Assembly: GCA_026393535.1 (NCBI GenBank)
Contig: JAPKZY010000044.1
Location: forward strand, 1 to 33,845
Direction of reading: 5' to 3'
DNA length: 33,845 bases
Source: Actinomycetota bacterium
GTDB taxonomy: Bacteria > Actinomycetota > Acidimicrobiia > Acidimicrobiales > Ilumatobacteraceae
Shown: positions 3,188-26,546 of the stretch, one piece after another
How positions within the stretch are numbered: the first letter of the stretch is position 1
Layout of the letters: each line of letters begins with the position of its first letter
Translations under genes and position numbers: made by a program
Notes under the pieces: model-generated
The model's input: the letters and a program-made list of their open reading frames with translations, nothing else
Databases searched by the model: none
Told to the model about the DNA's origin: nothing

Positions 3188-4375
3188 TTATTTGTCTGCA
3201 GTAACGCGAGCGTGCGGGAACACCCGCAGGAAGTTACCCGAGTTGAACTTGTCGACAGATGTCTGAGGCACCTGGGTCATGCACGACTCAAAACGGGCAA
3301 TCGGGTCACGGCCGCCCTCTGTGTGTGGGTAATCGCTAGAGAACAAATAGAGGTCGTCGTTTGATTGGTCGATTAGACGTGCAACATCTTCAAACACGAA
3401 CGGTGTGAATCCGAACTGTTGACGAATCTGCTCAGACGGTGAACGCTTGAAACCGCGAAGACGGTCGTCAACGCGTGAGTACGCCTTGTGGATGTGATCA
3501 AGGCGAACAATCATTTCAGGAACCCAGCCAGCGCCCAGTTCAACAGAAGCAAACTTCAAGTCTGGGAAGTCTTCAAGAACACCGTCAAGAACAAACATGG
3601 AAATAAATGTTTCAATACCCTGATGCATCACTGCAGCGTCACGAGCACGAACATTTTCTCCGCCGCCCATCCAGTCTTTTGTAACACCGCGACCGGTATT
3701 GCTCCACTCTGGCTTCAACTGCAGTGGGTTACCACCAACATGGAATACCACTGGCACTTGTGCTTCTTGCAACAACGACCAAATCGGATTGAAGTCAACA
3801 TGAGTTGGTGAACGCTCGCCAGCCAAACGATGTGGCACCCACATTGCCTCAAGACCATTGTCAAGACTCCACTGCACCTCTTCTAATGCAAGCGCTGGAT
3901 TCTCAAGTGGAATTGCAGCAACTCCCATGAGACGGTCATCAACTGAACAGAAGTCAGACATGTGACGGTTGTGCGCACGTGCGCCGCCGTAACGAACCTT
4001 GTCAGGAATTTTGCTGCTTGGTGAAAACGGCATGTGCAAACTGTGTGTTGGGAATACCAACTGCTTCTTGAAGCCCAACATGTCGCTGGCGATGACACGG
4101 TCATGCTTGTCGAATGCGCCAAGAGCTTGAATTTCTTTGACCTCTTGAATCATGCGATCACCAAGAGCAATAAGAGACTCTTTGTGTTCGTCAGAATGTT
4201 GTGAACCGTTGCCAACAATGATTGCAACTTCTTCGTCAGTCACAAGTGAACGGCCGTAATCAACTTCTGGAAGAAGGTCGCGCACGTCTGGGTCGGCAAA
4301 CTTCTTGAGGAAGTCTGGAAGCTCCATGATGTGTGTATCTGCGTCGTAAAGAACGCGATCGCCTGCGTATGTCAT
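3188..4375 (-). CDS. Metal-dependent amidohydrolase (amidohydrolase_2 family)
   Basis: This 395-residue protein has the layout of the TIM-barrel amidohydrolase_2 family, which includes decarboxylases and hydrolases of cyclic or carboxylated compounds. Visible metal or active-site elements are DADTHIME at residues 11-18, the His in VVFHVGG, the Glu in SVELGAGWVPEM, and the Asp/His of FSSDYPHTEGG near the C-terminus. The ATG at 4375 has a good upstream AGGGGA. It is the first gene of the minus-strand operon with the Baeyer-Villiger enzyme, so it may hydrolyse or decarboxylate a product of ketone oxidation. It is transcribed away from the PhyH-like gene, from a shared region of about 70 bases. 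Confidence 0.88.
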   Translation of the reverse strand: MTYAGDRVLYDADTHIMELPDFLKKFADPDVRDLLPEVDYGRSLVTDEEVAIIVGNGSQHSDEHKESLIALGDRMIQEVKEIQALGAFDKHDRVIASDMLGFKKQLVFPTHSLHMPFSPSSKIPDKVRYGGARAHNRHMSDFCSVDDRLMGVAAIPLENPALALEEVQWSLDNGLEAMWVPHRLAGERSPTHVDFNPIWSLLQEAQVPVVFHVGGNPLQLKPEWSNTGRGVTKDWMGGGENVRARDAAVMHQGIETFISMFVLDGVLEDFPDLKFASVELGAGWVPEMIVRLDHIHKAYSRVDDRLRGFKRSPSEQIRQQFGFTPFVFEDVARLIDQSNDDLYLFSSDYPHTEGGRDPIARFESCMTQVPQTSVDKFNSGNFLRVFPHARVTADK

Positions 4376-4445: not shown

Positions 4446-5249
4446 TTGGGTCAGGGCTACGCCCAATTGGGGGCTACTCAATACGATGAGGAGGTGCACA
4501 TCACCACCCCTCAGATCGATTCATATCGACGTAATGGCTGGCTTTTGTGCCGCCCGTTTGTGGGTGGAGAAATTCGTGATATCCAGCAGTGGGTTGACGA
4601 AGTTCAGCAGTGGCCCGAAAATGGCGACTGGTTGCATTATCGCGAAATGACCGACGATGGACCGAAGTTGTGCCGCACAGAAAACTTCGTGCCGTTTCAT
4701 ACTCCTCTGCGTGAAATCCTGACTACTGGTGCAATCGTGGAAATTGTCTCTGCCCTCATGGGTGAACAAGCAGTTCTGTATAAAGAGAAGATCAACTACA
4801 AGTTGGTCGGCGGAGCAGGGTTCCTGCCTCATCAAGATGCACCGGCGTACCCGTTTATTGAAACTTCAATCTCGTGCATGATCGCAATTGACCAAAGTAC
4901 AACGTCAAATGGTTGTTTAGAAGTTGTTGACGGACAACATCATGTATTGCTTCCGATGAACGAACGTGGATGCATCGTGAACGATTGGGTGGAAACACAT
5001 GAATGGCATCCAGTAGAGATGGAAGCGGGCGACGTTCTGTTCTTTCACTCGCACACACCGCATCGCAGTGGCACCAATAATTCACAACGTGACCGTCGTG
5101 CCATCTACCCCACCTTTAACGCCGCGAGCCAAGGTGACCTTCGAAGTGACTACTACGAAGAGAAGCTTCGAATTTTTCGCGACACAGAACATACTGCTGG
5201 AAACGTTCGTATTTCTCTAATTGACGACTTTGAAGGAAGACCCGTATGA
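4446..5249 (+). CDS. PhyH-family Fe(II)/2-oxoglutarate dioxygenase, PhnY-like candidate
   Basis: This protein belongs to the phytanoyl-CoA dioxygenase family of non-heme iron, 2-oxoglutarate-dependent hydroxylases. The iron ligands are visible as H129-Q-D131 in FLPHQDAPAY and a distal His at 206 in SHTPHRSGT. A 2-oxoglutarate-binding Arg is expected in RDRRAIYPTFN (numbered from 4446). Its stop overlaps the start of a PhnZ-like gene by four bases, the arrangement expected for a phosphonate hydroxylase acting before a C-P bond-cleaving oxygenase. The start is uncertain: TTG at 4446 has GAGGTG five bases upstream, whereas a perfect AGGAGGTG at 4489-4496 lies inside the frame just before the usual N-terminal sequence. 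The substrate cannot be read from sequence; ectoine-hydroxylase-like or other roles remain possible. Confidence 0.82.
   Translation: MGQGYAQLGATQYDEEVHITTPQIDSYRRNGWLLCRPFVGGEIRDIQQWVDEVQQWPENGDWLHYREMTDDGPKLCRTENFVPFHTPLREILTTGAIVEIVSALMGEQAVLYKEKINYKLVGGAGFLPHQDAPAYPFIETSISCMIAIDQSTTSNGCLEVVDGQHHVLLPMNERGCIVNDWVETHEWHPVEMEAGDVLFFHSHTPHRSGTNNSQRDRRAIYPTFNAASQGDLRSDYYEEKLRIFRDTEHTAGNVRISLIDDFEGRPV
4489..4496 (+). promoter_or_regulatory. Consensus Shine-Dalgarno inside the 5' end of the PhyH-like gene
   Basis: AGGAGGTG matches the anti-Shine-Dalgarno core perfectly. The only in-frame near-start codons are GTG at 4494-4496, which overlaps the motif, and ATC at 4500-4502, which has a five-base spacer. 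It may therefore serve a shorter form of the PhyH protein or only cause pausing. Confidence 0.4.
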
Positions 5250-5803
5250 ACAAATTTACATCACTAGTTGAAATTGAATCTCTCTTTGAAAAATGGGGAC
5301 AGCAGTTCTATAGCGAGAATATTTCGCAAACTGCTCATGCGGTGCAGTGCGCACAGTTAGCCGAAGAAGCAGATGCATCAAGCGCCCTTGTTCTTGCAGC
5401 GTTGCTTCACGATGTCGGCCACCTTGTTGATCTTGAAGACTCTGCGGGCAAAGAAGAACACGAAATAGACACGGCGCATGAGGCAACAGCAGCTCGCTTG
5501 CTGGCTTCGCTCTTTCCTCCGGCTGTCACTGCGCCAATTGCGCTTCATGTCGAAGGCAAACGGTGGCTGTGTGCACGAGAAGATGGTTACTTTGAATCGT
5601 TGAGTTCAGCTTCTGTTGCCAGCCTCGCGTTACAAGGTGGCCCCATGACAGATGCCGAGGCGGATCGATTTATGGCAATGCCGCAATTCGCCGACGCTAT
5701 TGCACTTCGGCGCTGGGATGACATTGGCAAAGACATCAGCAAAGACCAAGTGCCCCTTGATGAATTTCGCCGTCTGCTCCACTTCCATTTCGAACAAATA
5801 TAG
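5246..5803 (+). CDS. phnZ: HD-domain mixed-valent diiron oxygenase, PhnZ-like
   Basis: PhnZ cleaves 2-amino-1-hydroxyethylphosphonate to glycine and phosphate with a diiron HD-domain site. This 185-residue protein has the same length class and, by my memory of PhnZ, matching residues at a near-constant offset. H31, H55-D56, H78, H101 and D158 fit the iron ligands; K105, S123 and R155 fit the phosphonate-binding residues; E24 and Q28 sit in the YSENISQTAH segment that corresponds to the PhnZ lid. These hallmarks separate it from ordinary HD phosphohydrolases. Its ATG overlaps the stop of the PhyH gene (ATGA), implying translational coupling and a shared two-step pathway. The tyrosine before E24 seems shifted by one position relative to PhnZ. 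TmpB-like use of a trimethylated substrate is an alternative. Confidence 0.75.
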   Translation: MNKFTSLVEIESLFEKWGQQFYSENISQTAHAVQCAQLAEEADASSALVLAALLHDVGHLVDLEDSAGKEEHEIDTAHEATAARLLASLFPPAVTAPIALHVEGKRWLCAREDGYFESLSSASVASLALQGGPMTDAEADRFMAMPQFADAIALRRWDDIGKDISKDQVPLDEFRRLLHFHFEQI

Positions 5804-5815
5804 AAACGAATTACC

Positions 5816-6658
5816 ATGAGAATTCTTGTAACCAACGATGACGGCATCGACTCTGTCGGACTTCATGTCCTAGCCCGCGCGATGCGTCCATACGGTGAAG
5901 TTGTGGTCGCCGCCCCAGACCAGGAGTATTCCGGTGCAGGTGCAGCAATCGGCGCATTGCACATCATTCAGCCTGAAGTCCACAAACGAACGATTGAGGG
6001 CATCGATACTTCATGGGCAATCACCGGACCACCCGCATTGTGTGTTTTCTTTGCACGGCTCGGTGTCTACGGTGGCCCGTTTGATTTAGTCGTGTCTGGC
6101 ATTAACCCTGGCGCAAATGTTGGCCGCGCTGTGTACCACTCGGGAACTGTAGGTGCAGCACTTACTGCTCGTAACGGTGGAGTCAGCGGTATTGCAGTCA
6201 GCCAAGCAGTCACCGGTTTCGGGGCAGAAGGCCAAGGTTGGGACGACGCACTGAAGGGCCAGCAATGGGATTCAGCAGCAACAGTTGCGCAACGAGTTGT
6301 AGAGGGCTGGATTGCAGATCGACCAAAAGAGCCAGTCGTCATCAATGTGAACGTGCCGAACTGCGCAGTGGCAGACATGAAGGGTTGGCGTCGCACTGAT
6401 ATTGGGCACATTGTTCCCGTTGCAATGGCAACAGCAGATCTTGAAGCCAAAGAAGGACACGAAGGCGCTTTCTACGTTCGTATGAATTATGGAGCACAAG
6501 TACAAATGCCGCCAGAGACTGACGGTGGTGCTGTAGAAAACGGCGAAGTGGCAATTACATATGTCAGTCGTTTTAATGACGTTCCGTCACTGGGCTCAAC
6601 AGCAGTTAACGACGCGCTCACATCACTTGTGGGCAAGGCGAGCACACTGCACTCATAG
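5816..6658 (+). CDS. surE: SurE 5'/3'-nucleotidase
   Basis: SurE hydrolyses nucleoside 5' and 3' monophosphates and sometimes short polyphosphate. The protein starts with the diagnostic MRILVTNDDGIDSVGL, with metal ligands D8 and D9, has S39 in YSGAGAA, and carries SGINPGANVG with the conserved Asn. The length of 280 is usual. It starts 12 bases after the PhnZ-like gene, so it is probably co-transcribed. Association with a phosphate-releasing pair could reflect a common role in phosphorus recovery, but SurE is a common housekeeping enzyme and the link is only positional. Confidence 0.95.
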   Translation: MRILVTNDDGIDSVGLHVLARAMRPYGEVVVAAPDQEYSGAGAAIGALHIIQPEVHKRTIEGIDTSWAITGPPALCVFFARLGVYGGPFDLVVSGINPGANVGRAVYHSGTVGAALTARNGGVSGIAVSQAVTGFGAEGQGWDDALKGQQWDSAATVAQRVVEGWIADRPKEPVVINVNVPNCAVADMKGWRRTDIGHIVPVAMATADLEAKEGHEGAFYVRMNYGAQVQMPPETDGGAVENGEVAITYVSRFNDVPSLGSTAVNDALTSLVGKASTLHS

Positions 6659-6690: not shown

Positions 6691-7560
6691 ATGACTGATT
6701 GGCAAAATCTCACTCGGCGCGCATCATTTGCGTCGCACCAACTACTGGGCTGGATCTTTTGGGATTCGCGCGCGAAAGACAATCTCGCAGCACTTGGTGT
6801 GCCCGATGGACTAGGTCATTACATTGTGAACCGCGGTGCACCGCTGGCGCCTGCAGGAGCAGAAGCATTGTTCGCAGCGTTCTATACAATCAAACGCGAG
6901 TTCGTTCACTTCGTACTAAACAATGCTGCTACATACATCACTGATTGGCATCAAGTCACAGTTGCACGTGATTCTGCTGTTCGAGCTGGTCTCGAAGAAA
7001 TGACTCCGCACATCATTGCGCCGTTCGGGGCACTTGCCGATGACTTATGGAAAACAGTTGATGCGATTCCTCCAAGTGGACGCGTTTTGTTTGCCGCACA
7101 CAAATCATGGCCACGGCCAACGGACCCTTTGATGTCAGCATGGAACGCATTGAACTGCATTCGCGAATGGCGCGGTGACACACATTTTGGAATTTTGTTG
7201 AACGACAACATCGGTGTTGTTGAAGCTGGACTTCTGCATGATGCGTGGATGGGCTACCCCAAAGAATGGATCCCTCGCAGTCGCGGCGCAGATGATGCAG
7301 AAATTATTGCTGCCCTTGACAACTTGTCATCACGTGGGTTTGTTACTGATGGTGTCATCAATGACGCGGGTGTCGAGTATCGAGTAGAGCTTGAACGCCG
7401 TACAGATGTGCTGTGTGAAATTCCGTGGCGTCACTTCGGCGAAAAGAATACTGTTGAGTTGCTATCTATTCTCGAACCTGTTGGCGAACGATACGTGCAA
7501 CACATCAACGAGAATGCTGGTGAGAACTGGATGCCAGCAGCTCGGCCTCGTCGCCGCTAA
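6691..7560 (+). CDS. SCO6745-family protein of unknown function
   Basis: The 289-residue protein resembles the actinobacterial SCO6745 family. The segment EWRGDTHFGILL followed by EAGLLHDAW is the pattern I recognise for that family, and the C-terminal third (DNLSSRGFVTDGVINDAG) has the look of a degenerate winged helix. No catalytic motif, signal peptide or membrane segment is evident. It follows surE by 32 bases on the same strand. Its stop TAA shares bases with the stop of the convergent DUF2071 gene. Molecular function is unknown. Confidence 0.75.
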   Translation: MTDWQNLTRRASFASHQLLGWIFWDSRAKDNLAALGVPDGLGHYIVNRGAPLAPAGAEALFAAFYTIKREFVHFVLNNAATYITDWHQVTVARDSAVRAGLEEMTPHIIAPFGALADDLWKTVDAIPPSGRVLFAAHKSWPRPTDPLMSAWNALNCIREWRGDTHFGILLNDNIGVVEAGLLHDAWMGYPKEWIPRSRGADDAEIIAALDNLSSRGFVTDGVINDAGVEYRVELERRTDVLCEIPWRHFGEKNTVELLSILEPVGERYVQHINENAGENWMPAARPRRR

Positions 7561-24435: not shown

Positions 24436-25086
24436 ATGAGCGACGCTGACAATCTGTATTCCATTCTTTCGACAACCCGATCCATTCGACGCATCAGCGA
24501 TAAACCCGTTGATGATGCAACTCTCGAACGCGTGTTGCAAGCTGCAATTTGGGCACCAAGTGGTGGCAACAGGCAACCATGGCGCATTATTGCAGTACGC
24601 GACCGCGCGCTAAAACAAAAACTTGGACAAATTTACGCGGCCGAATGGGCCACATACGTTGAAATGAACATGAAGCGTGTTGAAGGAATGCCAGAAAATA
24701 TCGTGGAAGCAACACGCACCGGTCTTGCGGTCGGCACACGTCTCGCTGAATCACTTGCCGATGTTCCCGTTGTCGTCATGTTCATTCATGATCCGCGTGA
24801 GGTGTACGTCACCGACGGAAATCTCGGACGTACACCAGTTGTGGGCGGAGCATCCTTATACCCCGCGGTGCAAAACCTGTTACTTGCTGCTCGCGCTGAA
24901 GGATTAGGCGGAGTTCTCACAACTCTTATTTCGGCAAGCGAAGTGAAAGTGCGTGAACTGCTCGAAATACCAGAACCATGGGGCGTCTATGCCATGGTTC
25001 CACTTGGTCACCCAATGGGCAATCATGGTCCGTTACGTCGTGCACCGCTCAGTCAGATGGTCAAATACGACCGCTGGTCTGATTAA
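24436..25086 (+). CDS. Nitroreductase-family FMN oxidoreductase
   Basis: This 216-residue protein has the nitroreductase pattern. RSIRRISDKPVDDATL at the N-terminus contains the FMN-binding Arg residues, WAPSGGNRQPW is near residue 40, and YPAVQNLLLAARAEGLGGVL is near residue 140. It should use FMN and NAD(P)H to reduce nitro groups, quinones or related compounds, or act in dehalogenation or ring reduction. It follows the zincin gene by 31 bases and ends with stop bases shared with the convergent sulfatase-family gene (TTAA). Confidence 0.93.
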   Translation: MSDADNLYSILSTTRSIRRISDKPVDDATLERVLQAAIWAPSGGNRQPWRIIAVRDRALKQKLGQIYAAEWATYVEMNMKRVEGMPENIVEATRTGLAVGTRLAESLADVPVVVMFIHDPREVYVTDGNLGRTPVVGGASLYPAVQNLLLAARAEGLGGVLTTLISASEVKVRELLEIPEPWGVYAMVPLGHPMGNHGPLRRAPLSQMVKYDRWSD

Positions 25087-26546
25087 GACTCAGTACGCCA
25101 CTCAACATTTGTTGGCCACCGGCCAACACCTCCACTGTCAGTAAGAAATCCGGTCAGGGTTCTATTCGCATGTTCCATGCGCCACGTCAACATGGCGCGC
25201 GCGTTCTCAGAGATCACTTCTGCATCGGTGGTCAACGTGCGCCACGTATTGTCAGCTTCTAAGTCGAAACACAAGAAGTCTCCGTCGCCGAATTGAACAT
25301 ATGCATGAGTATCACTGCGTCGCACTGCAAGATTCAGTTGTTCAAGACGTCGACGCCATGGCCACACGTATCTATCGGCGGGAATAAGCGCGAATCGCCA
25401 GTCGTATTCCCAATGAGCAGCATCGCGCCACCACGGTGGCTCCGTACCATTCACAAAATGTGTCAACGGTAATCCATCACATTGGGCCGGAATCGGAATC
25501 TCCATGACTTCGCACAGCGTGGGCATAATGTCAATGTTTTCTGTGAATTTGTCAACCACAGTTCCGTGAACGCTTGCATGACGTGGGTCAGCAACAATTC
25601 CGATGATGTGTTGACTTGTTTCCCAATAGCCAACTTTTTCGCGCAACCCATGATCACCCAACATCTCTGCGTGATCGGCAGTGACAACAATGACCGTGTT
25701 ATCCCATTCGCCTGATTCCACTAATGAATCGAATAGCCGCCCAAGTTGGTAATCAACTTCGCTAATCATTCCGAAATATTGGGCACGCATATGAGCCATC
25801 TCGTCAGGATCTGTCGGGGCTTTAGTTCCATCAAGCATCAACATCACTTCATGGAAGGGATGCACATTCTCTGCGCGCTGAATCGGTTCGCCAACGGAAG
25901 ATGGGTCATACATCGTGGAATATTCGCCAGCTGCCGAATACGGAGGATGTGGACGCAGATAACTCGCGTGTGCAAACCAACCAGTGTCTTGAGAACTAAT
26001 CCATTCAACAAGCCGATTCGTCAGGAAGTTACTGACGCTGACGTCAACTGGTCGTTCATGTTCGGTTGATAACAATTGCAAAATTCCTGGTGAAGTGTCG
26101 TATCCCTTTTCGGTGAGAAGTTCTCGCCATGGAGTCATGCGTCGCGTCAAGTCGAGCGCACACTCGAAACCGGGCAACACTCCTTCATATGTTTGAAGGC
26201 GAGGGTCGTCGGCACCTGTCGTAACTCGAGGGTCAATTGACTGGTCAGTGTATCCGAACAGAGTTGGCGTGTACCCGGCGCGTCGTGCCGCGAGCGCAAT
26301 ATTGTCGAACCCATCATCAAGAGGTGTTCCGTTAGCAACAACGCGATGGTTCATTTGGTACATACCGGTGTACAGCGACGCGCGACCGGGCGAACACGGC
26401 GACGCTTGGCTGTAGTGCCGCGACAACCGAACGCCACGTTCACACAGGCGATCAAGGTTGGGTGTCTTGACGACAGGGTGACCAGCAATAGACAAACAAT
26501 CACCGCGAAATTGATCAAGGGTGATCAGAAGAACATTCATTGCCAT
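25083..26546 (-). CDS. Sulfatase-superfamily hydrolase, phosphonate-monoester-hydrolase-like
   Basis: This 487-residue cytoplasmic hydrolase has the formylglycine nucleophile motif C51-S-P-G-R55 in SPCSPGRASLYTG, metal-site residues in LLITLDQFRGD and VTADHAEMLGDHG, and a catalytic-Lys-like REKVGY. Beyond the generic sulfatase motifs, TLFGYTDQSIDPR, YLRPHPPY and the terminal TWRMEHANRTLTGF match, from memory, the layout of bacterial phosphonate monoester hydrolases/phosphodiesterases of the Rhizobium and Burkholderia type. These cleave phosphonate monoesters, phosphodiesters and some sulfates promiscuously. No signal peptide is present. Activation would require a formylglycine-generating enzyme, which is not encoded here. 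It may therefore be a phosphodiesterase rather than a true sulfatase. Confidence 0.85.
   Translation of the reverse strand: MAMNVLLITLDQFRGDCLSIAGHPVVKTPNLDRLCERGVRLSRHYSQASPCSPGRASLYTGMYQMNHRVVANGTPLDDGFDNIALAARRAGYTPTLFGYTDQSIDPRVTTGADDPRLQTYEGVLPGFECALDLTRRMTPWRELLTEKGYDTSPGILQLLSTEHERPVDVSVSNFLTNRLVEWISSQDTGWFAHASYLRPHPPYSAAGEYSTMYDPSSVGEPIQRAENVHPFHEVMLMLDGTKAPTDPDEMAHMRAQYFGMISEVDYQLGRLFDSLVESGEWDNTVIVVTADHAEMLGDHGLREKVGYWETSQHIIGIVADPRHASVHGTVVDKFTENIDIMPTLCEVMEIPIPAQCDGLPLTHFVNGTEPPWWRDAAHWEYDWRFALIPADRYVWPWRRRLEQLNLAVRRSDTHAYVQFGDGDFLCFDLEADNTWRTLTTDAEVISENARAMLTWRMEHANRTLTGFLTDSGGVGRWPTNVEWRTES

Follow-up and report, generated by a model that had tools for sequence, protein, structure and literature searches.

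Do two overlapping genes in a genome of the family Ilumatobacteraceae encode an oxidative route from phosphonates to phosphate? The question is raised by a stretch of 33,845 nucleotides (hereafter the window), for which a first-pass annotation, made from the sequence alone, had proposed a PhnY/PhnZ-type pair that degrades phosphonates. The features concerned are the following:

4446..5249, + strand: gene of a PhyH-type, PhnY-like, Fe(II)-dependent 2-oxoglutarate oxygenase (267 amino acids, TTG start), the proposed phosphonate alpha-hydroxylase
5246..5803, + strand: gene of a PhnZ/TmpB-type HD-domain mixed-valent diiron oxygenase (185 amino acids, ATG start), the proposed enzyme that cleaves the carbon-phosphorus (C-P) bond
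5246..5249, + strand: four-base overlap ATGA that couples the PhyH and HD genes

We estimate a probability of about 0.88 that the two genes are an oxidative phosphonate-degrading module. We arrived at the PhnY/PhnZ-type reading, and thereby uphold the initial proposal, because it is supported by how the proteins score against family models, by their active-site residues and predicted structure, and by the tree and the gene context.

The gene pair

As contig C48 the window belongs to a host genome of 1.96 megabases (113 contigs, 94% complete), which has a single HD gene of the Phn-HD kind. By identity the kin of this gene include those in two bins, one of Ilumatobacteraceae from Lake Baikal (L032, 87%) and one titled uncultured Acidimicrobiaceae (L031, 92%), and the host is probably an aquatic, likely lake, acidimicrobial actinobacterium. 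In all counts given below the class is the one assigned to the window, taken as Acidimicrobiia.

Gene order was compared across 74 loci, namely the window, 60 regions chosen from the stronger HD matches and 13 others, so that they do not form a random sample. According to blastp a separate PhyH gene lies directly upstream of the HD gene in 43 of these loci and three have a single fused open reading frame (ORF). The PhyH-type partner with a four-base overlap that had been described was found as stated, with ATGA at 5246-5249, and an identical -4 overlap occurs in 34 of the 43 loci. The remaining nine comprise three one-base overlaps and six cases in which the overlap is unreadable since the HD frame is already open upstream of the PhyH stop codon. 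The pair stays together while the flanking genes differ among relatives. Both genes are under strong purifying selection: the ratio of nonsynonymous to synonymous substitution rates (dN/dS) against the close relatives L076 and L077 was 0.078 and 0.045 for the PhyH gene and 0.066 and 0.045 for the HD gene. Against the more distant L078 the synonymous sites of the PhyH gene were saturated and the HD gene gave 0.124. The gene pair and the residue pattern described below are confirmed as real and not the product of chance.

The HD protein

The HD protein matches the Pfam HD model with an E-value of 2.8e-6. Its sequence matches in the PDB were TmpB (9.5e-26) and PhnZ (2.3e-23), and the sole other match listed was at chance level (E 0.82). 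The predicted model had a predicted local distance difference test score (pLDDT) of 95.3. At E<=0.001 its fold matches in the PDB were confined to PhnZ and TmpB, with 10 chains at template modelling (TM) scores of 0.79-0.85; the next fold match had an E-value of 0.11.

The annotation had also named residues of PhnZ that are kept at a near-constant offset. We found all of them (H31, H55, D56, H101, K105, S123, R155 and D158), at an offset of -3 from PhnZ, together with three further counterparts, H78 (PhnZ H80), H59 (H62) and E24 (E27). The diiron ligand pattern H...HD...H...H...D is present as H31, H55, D56, H78, H101 and D158, and PhnZ residues K108, S126 and R158 are those that we take to contact the phosphonate. 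For the structure-side alignments 40 HD and 30 PhyH sequences were chosen by hand among the retrieved loci. Across the 40 HD sequences, window included, Y22, E24, H31, H55, D56, H59, H78, H101, K105, S123, R155 and D158 are invariant, and the match of ligands and contacts is therefore not a matter of chance. In a larger set of 85 aligned HD rows only one of the 12 columns for ligands, loop and contacts was not constant, that of PhnZ H62, which reads W in L135, Q in L156 and R in L022. Variation was also seen in two additional tallied columns, PhnZ 129 and 132. The partial HD gene of L089 and L023 (the same gene as L100) were excluded from the residue alignment and the tree, and the near-copies L005 and L006 additionally from the tree.

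The PhyH protein

The partner matches the Pfam PhyH model (E 5.7e-25). Its top NCBIfam match, and the only strong one, is the methylphosphonate hydroxylase model NF052437 from Gimesia maris (251 bits, E 8.7e-75). H129-x-D131, H206 and R217 are invariant across the 30 chosen sequences, window included. From general knowledge of the fold we take H129, D131 and H206 to be the HxD...H facial triad and R217 the arginine that binds 2-oxoglutarate; with both kept, the protein belongs to the Fe(II)/2-oxoglutarate oxygenases of the PhyH type. The predicted model (pLDDT 92.4) had proline hydroxylase H11, EvdMO1, AviO1 and EctD as its top PDB folds, SnoK was also among the matches, and human PhyH (phytanoyl-CoA hydroxylase) ranked 46th.

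We are unsure whether translation starts at TTG 4446 or at GTG 4494. An AGGTG lies five bases upstream of the TTG, while residues 1-14 fall under a pLDDT of 50 and several relatives begin near GTG 4494, both of which speak against the TTG.

Gating loop and HD tree

In PhnZ and TmpB a YxxE loop gates the active site: on substrate binding the tyrosine leaves the iron and the glutamate nears the amino group, as described in PMC8177086. The window protein has Y22-S23-E24 instead (YxE), with tyrosine and glutamate one residue closer. In an alignment-free count 49 of the 51 PhyH-paired rows had YxE and the other two (L106, L124) YYxE; the motif also occurred in 8 of 11 TmpA-paired and 6 of 21 other rows, while the PhnZ and TmpB references had YxxE. 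YxxE is retained in the Bacteroidota, Variovorax-type, Verrucomicrobia and Nostoc HD proteins of the set; YxE is shared by the fused protein of L097 and by the HD protein of Dietzia. As judged from these sequences the YxE loop is a trait of the clade and not a marker of the partner, because it is spread over PhyH-paired, TmpA-paired and other rows. Since the PhyH-paired rows have YxE with only the two YYxE exceptions, we treat it as variation within the PhnY/PhnZ kind.

The first-pass annotation would have been contradicted by a place among non-phosphonate HD oxygenases. In the HD tree (83 rows) the window protein instead falls into a group of 33 rows that are all PhyH-paired (support 88/90, without a star), and within it into nested groups of 3, 4 and 7 rows, which are starred and confined to the genus. 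TmpB, included as a reference, clusters with TmpA-paired proteins (96/86, starred). The PhnZ reference joins Bacteroidota proteins on a long branch and its placement is unsure. Treated as a label, PhyH pairing required six changes on the tree. We also observed YxE-type Phn-HD genes at four loci (L110, L120, L122, L126) where no PhyH or TmpA neighbour was recognised.

Comparison with known systems

As in PhnY/PhnZ-type pathways, a 2-oxoglutarate oxygenase gene adjoins a Phn-HD gene, here with the four-base overlap. The GmPhnY/GmPhnZ1 pair of G. maris and PhnY/PhnZ of Prochlorococcus MIT9301 likewise consist of a hydroxylase and an HD oxygenase, and among the models the window PhyH protein scores best on that of the G. 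maris hydroxylase. This likeness is one of model scores, and the window proteins fall short of both G. maris equivalog cut-offs, at about half their value (251 against 500 and 145 against 300 bits). With the 2-aminoethylphosphonate system PhnY*/PhnZ of HF130_AEPn_1 the pair shares the two-gene logic, the diiron ligands and the fold (TM about 0.8); its PhnY* partner is presumably also of the PhyH type. HF130 PhnZ differs in its YxxE loop and lies elsewhere in the tree, where it is weakly placed.

The annotation had further likened the pair to TmpA/TmpB, which in Leisingera caerulea acts on 2-trimethylaminoethylphosphonate. The likeness stood for the HD protein, whose best PDB sequence match is TmpB and which shares its fold and ligands, and fell for the partner, which is of the PhyH type whereas TmpA resembles gamma-butyrobetaine hydroxylase (GBBH). 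TmpB also has a YxxE loop and clusters with TmpA-paired proteins. We therefore rejected membership in TmpA/TmpB, as the partner is PhyH and not GBBH/TauD and the HD protein scores 141 bits on NF049941, below the cut-off of 300.

Fusion of the two activities in one protein is known from PhoF of the fungus Fonsecaea multimorphosa, a fused PhnY-PhnZ that, as described in PMC10574752, has the same two activities; the window genes are separate and overlapping. The bacterial PhyH-HD single ORFs in L097, L100 and L118 parallel it.

Genes for phosphonate uptake and cleavage

Among the relatives phnC, phnD, phnE and phnM recur as neighbours (blastp clusters 1, 8, 9 and 30), and one member of each cluster scored over its cut-off. 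Extra members of cluster 1 were typed because it is a broad ATP-binding cassette (ABC) ATPase cluster, which contains phnC as well as an amino-acid-type transporter ATPase encoded in the window. In L096, from the same family, the order on one strand is phnM, PhyH, HD, a phnD-type gene, phnC and phnE; phnM, phnC and phnE are over cut-off and the phnD-type gene is typed solely by its blastp cluster. In L101 a divergent phnDCE set lies one gene off the pair (phnC and phnE pass, PhnD reaches 206 of 261). In two congeners (loci L080 and L081, genomes G018 and G024) phnJ precedes the pair by about 3.6 kilobases (kb) on its strand, and G024 has phnM and an inositol-monophosphatase-family gene ahead of the pair as well. 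In Nostoc an HD gene is found within a C-P lyase operon.

It had been noted that no C-P lyase or phosphonatase gene lies nearby. This holds for C-P lyase among the 18 of 35 window proteins that were scanned, and does not extend to the genome: contig C43 (L152, G000:C43:56000-75500) carries phnHIJKLM-type genes divergent from phnDCE. On this contig phnJ, phnI and phnH are over their Pfam cut-offs, phnM is over the cut-offs of two models, phnK and phnL are best matches under cut-off, and the phnD-type gene, phnC and phnE are over cut-offs. With this C-P lyase set and the pair, the host therefore has two possible C-P bond-breaking routes in one genome. PhnW was over cut-off in none of the 32 genus genomes, many of which are incomplete (28 had sub-cut-off matches, the best 125.7 bits in G027), in a search that did not include PhnX and PhnA, and we rejected a PhnW route in the genus on this count.

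From the literature, three reports mention phnJ of Ilumatobacteraceae in a lake (PMC10734540), phnCED and phnA in an acidimicrobial isolate (PMC12263773), and transcripts of phnZ in Lake Taihu, of which three out of six were assigned to the type specific for methylphosphonate (PMC10291797).

Distribution

HD homologs, a few of them weak, were found in 25 of the 61 genomes searched, host included. Within the class TIGR03276 matched 188 of 395 genomes at E<=0.001; four passed the cut-off and many were weak general HD matches. NF052437 matched 60 of 395 at E<=1e-30, none over cut-off. For the pair count we used the listed HD matches of at least 57 bits (107 matches in 102 genomes) and left out weaker or unlisted ones. 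Same-strand neighbouring pairs occurred in 46 of the 395 genomes, 43 in the order PhyH-HD (three as single-ORF fusions) and three as HD-PhyH. Seen from the 61 strong PhyH matches of the class, 46 had a same-strand HD neighbour, one an adjacent HD gene on the opposite strand, three one within 6 kb and 11 none. Together with the plasmids described below, these counts correct the statement that few such pairs are known in actinobacteria.

phnJ was present in six of the 395 class genomes, and five of these were among the 102 genomes with a listed HD match (hypergeometric p 0.005, with shared ancestry ignored). The host and five others of the 32 genus genomes carry both the HD gene and phnJ. In a phylum-wide sample the PhyH protein occurred in 15 of 396 genomes, 14 of them of the window's class; the class make-up of the sample is not listed and it is thus no measure of the rest of the phylum. 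The only genome from outside the class, G525 (L176), also has an HD gene adjoining PhyH.

The pair was further found on one Rhodococcus (NJ-530) and one Dietzia plasmid with the overlap as in the window. The two plasmid loci (L153, L154) share a cassette of a cobalamin-independent methionine synthase II-like gene, a 2-oxoglutarate oxygenase, a GPR1/FUN34/YaaH transporter, PhyH and HD. The locus also occurs in three public records of metagenome-assembled genomes titled Bifidobacterium breve (L028, L029, L030), titles that look wrong. A phage search matched one record, at an unannotated place near the record end (E 2e-13). One locus among the viral contigs, on an IMG/VR contig (L159:1671-3370:+), has a gamma-butyrobetaine-hydroxylase-like gene, a Phn-HD gene and, close to them, ORFs resembling DNA polymerase I, functions that apart from the HD match were read by eye; it is perhaps a prophage edge.

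One survey gives only 7 phnY*Z clusters in 19,425 complete genomes (PMC8154272), and another finds 2,688 genomes with phnZ homologs, most of them from proteobacteria (PMC10574752). As their search criteria differ and 2,688 genomes have phnZ homologs, "underrated" fits the class and not the gene: the pair is fairly common in a little-studied class and of an oxidative kind that is already known. Among the titles and first lines of the literature matches listed there was no paper describing a PhyH-HD pair in Acidimicrobiia.

Proposed reactions and substrate

Judging from its family, the PhyH protein would hydroxylate a small phosphonate at the carbon adjoining the phosphorus, in a reaction that uses Fe(II), O2 and 2-oxoglutarate. 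Family, residues and fold suggest that the mixed-valent Fe(II)/Fe(III) pair of the HD protein would then bind the 1-hydroxyphosphonate and, with O2, split the C-P bond to phosphate and a carboxylic acid. This acid would be formate from methylphosphonate and glycine from 2-aminoethylphosphonate, so the products named in the annotation, phosphate plus an amino acid, apply if the substrate is an aminophosphonate and not if it is methylphosphonate. The phnDCE transporter, whose genes lie on another contig, could serve for uptake.

As to the substrate, methylphosphonate or hydroxymethylphosphonate (HMP) is a tentative choice that falls short of even odds. The PhyH protein would then form HMP and the HD protein release formate and phosphate, as in G. 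maris and Prochlorococcus MIT9301. The methylphosphonate hydroxylase model is the sole strong NCBIfam match of the PhyH protein, and the HMP dioxygenase model of G. maris gives 217 bits for L097 and 202 for Dietzia, both with YxE (L115 scored 173). However, no NCBIfam model for PhnY*, the 2-aminoethylphosphonate hydroxylase, was among the matches, hence the PhyH score is a lead and does not discriminate between substrates, and the window HD protein scores the HMP and TmpB models alike (145 and 141 bits).

2-Aminoethylphosphonate, which would yield glycine and phosphate as in HF130 PhnY*/PhnZ, is a doubtful candidate, and it is just as doubtful that the pair acts on some other phosphonate or on neither; methylphosphonate is slightly ahead of 2-aminoethylphosphonate. 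For the latter speaks the invariant E24, whose counterpart E27 in PhnZ nears the substrate amino group (PMC8177086). Yet GmPhnZ and TmpB are similar in their substrate-binding residues according to PMC11203657, and therefore E24 does not discriminate either. The window loop is in another register than that of PhnZ, and PhnZ stands apart in the tree on its long, unsure branch with Bacteroidota proteins.

If the substrate is methylphosphonate, the pair would free phosphate and formate without methane, unlike C-P lyase acting on the same compound. We consider it rather unlikely, although conceivable, that the PhyH-paired YxE Phn-HD clade of the class is a distinct oxidative phosphonate branch in which the short loop tunes substrate or oxygen gating differently from PhnZ/TmpB. 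As the pair is more frequent in the class than C-P lyase (46 of 395 genomes against 6 of 395 with phnJ), such a branch could in lakes divert methylphosphonate from methane production.

Counter-evidence and alternative explanations

Several observations weigh against a phosphonate-degrading pair. The HD protein misses all three NCBIfam phosphonate HD cut-offs, with 205 bits against 214.6 on its top match, Phn-HD TIGR03276, and the scores given above on HMP dioxygenase NF052439 and TmpB NF049941 (cut-off 300 each). The PhnZ segment itself (173 amino acids, not full length) is likewise under the TIGR03276 cut-off with 189.5 bits and scores 121 and 141 on the other two. The PhyH protein is under the NF052437 cut-off (251 against 500 bits), and the HD protein has one residue fewer in its gating loop than the solved PhnZ and TmpB enzymes. 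By blastp 28 of the 74 loci have an HD gene without a PhyH neighbour, 12 of these being TmpA-paired or fused, and 15 of the 61 strong PhyH matches of the class lack a listed HD match next to them on the same strand. In the host genome itself the pair stands without any recognised phosphonate gene beside it. Within the genus the co-occurrence of phnJ and HD was not significant (6 of 7 phnJ genomes against 18 of 32 overall, p 0.087, ancestry ignored).

Two other functions are both very improbable. The HD protein could be a metal-dependent phosphohydrolase of the ordinary kind, with the PhyH gene next to its own by happenstance. It has the general HD Pfam match, and the H...HD...H...H...D motif occurs in some unusual dimetal hydrolases (PMC11203657). 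However, its good sequence and fold matches are limited to PhnZ and TmpB, PhyH is frequently adjacent and sometimes fused, and the loop tyrosine and glutamate, K105 and S123 are retained. We rejected this function on fold and residues. Alternatively, the pair could tailor a phosphonate in biosynthesis instead of degrading it, as PhyH-type oxygenases occur in biosynthetic pathways and EvdMO1, AviO1 and SnoK are among the fold matches; in some relatives, however, genes for uptake and C-P lyase are linked with the pair, and we rejected this since phosphoenolpyruvate (PEP) mutase was over cut-off in none of the 32 genus genomes, many of them incomplete (20 had sub-cut-off matches, the host 64.5 bits against a cut-off of 319.55).

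Neighbouring genes

The neighbours of the proposed phosphonate-degrading pair in the window are listed here:

3188-4375, divergent: amidohydrolase gene, 70 bases upstream of PhyH
5816..6658, + strand: SurE-type 5'/3'-nucleotidase gene (TIGR00087 137.5 bits, above the cut-off of 135.1), 12 base pairs past the pair
6691..7560, + strand: SCO6745-family (HTH_67) protein gene (NF047719 172.8 bits, above the cut-off of 120)
25083..26546, - strand: PehA-like phosphoric/sulfuric ester hydrolase of the sulfatase superfamily (Pfam Sulfatase 1.2e-43; NF045661 377 bits, cut-off 900)

The SurE gene is perhaps co-transcribed with the pair. It adjoins the HD gene in 4 of the 74 loci (window, L076, L077, L078) and additionally in L003, L005 and L006, that is, in the closest relatives only.

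The PehA-like hydrolase lies about 19 kb from the pair. In ten other loci (L079, L087, L088, L089, L094, L099, L104, L105, L108, L127) blastp relatives of it are found two places before HD, adjoining the pair in either orientation; only the member in L087 was typed. Matches to the family occur in all 32 genus genomes, with or without HD, and the link to the pair thus comes from adjacency alone. For the same reason we set aside a role as feeder of phosphonate esters as weak.

Fused proteins

The single-ORF fusions among the relatives are located as follows:

L097:7269-8903:-, L100:5881-7797:+ and L118:6174-7583:+: PhyH-HD fusions
L095:6040-7782:+: TmpA-TmpB fusion (TmpA part 468 bits, over the cut-off of 400)
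L130:5872-8184:+, L131:6012-8372:-, L132:5891-7918:+, L133:3324-5768:+, L134:5942-8281:+, L172:1295-3643:-, L173:1481-3703:+ and L174:1457-3805:+: triple-domain proteins

The last group, from eight class genomes, combines a type I phosphodiesterase, a Phn-HD oxygenase and a TmpA-type hydroxylase in a single protein; complete copies have 771-815 amino acids, and those of L132 and L173 are cut off by the end of their contigs. Comparison with L130 by blastp recovered the three parts in eight of eight, and Pfam the phosphodiesterase and TauD parts in all seven tried. The TmpA and Phn-HD models match L130 and L131 under cut-off. These proteins lie outside the window and are more novel than its pair; their domain content suggests that they could turn a phosphonate ester to phosphate within one polypeptide.

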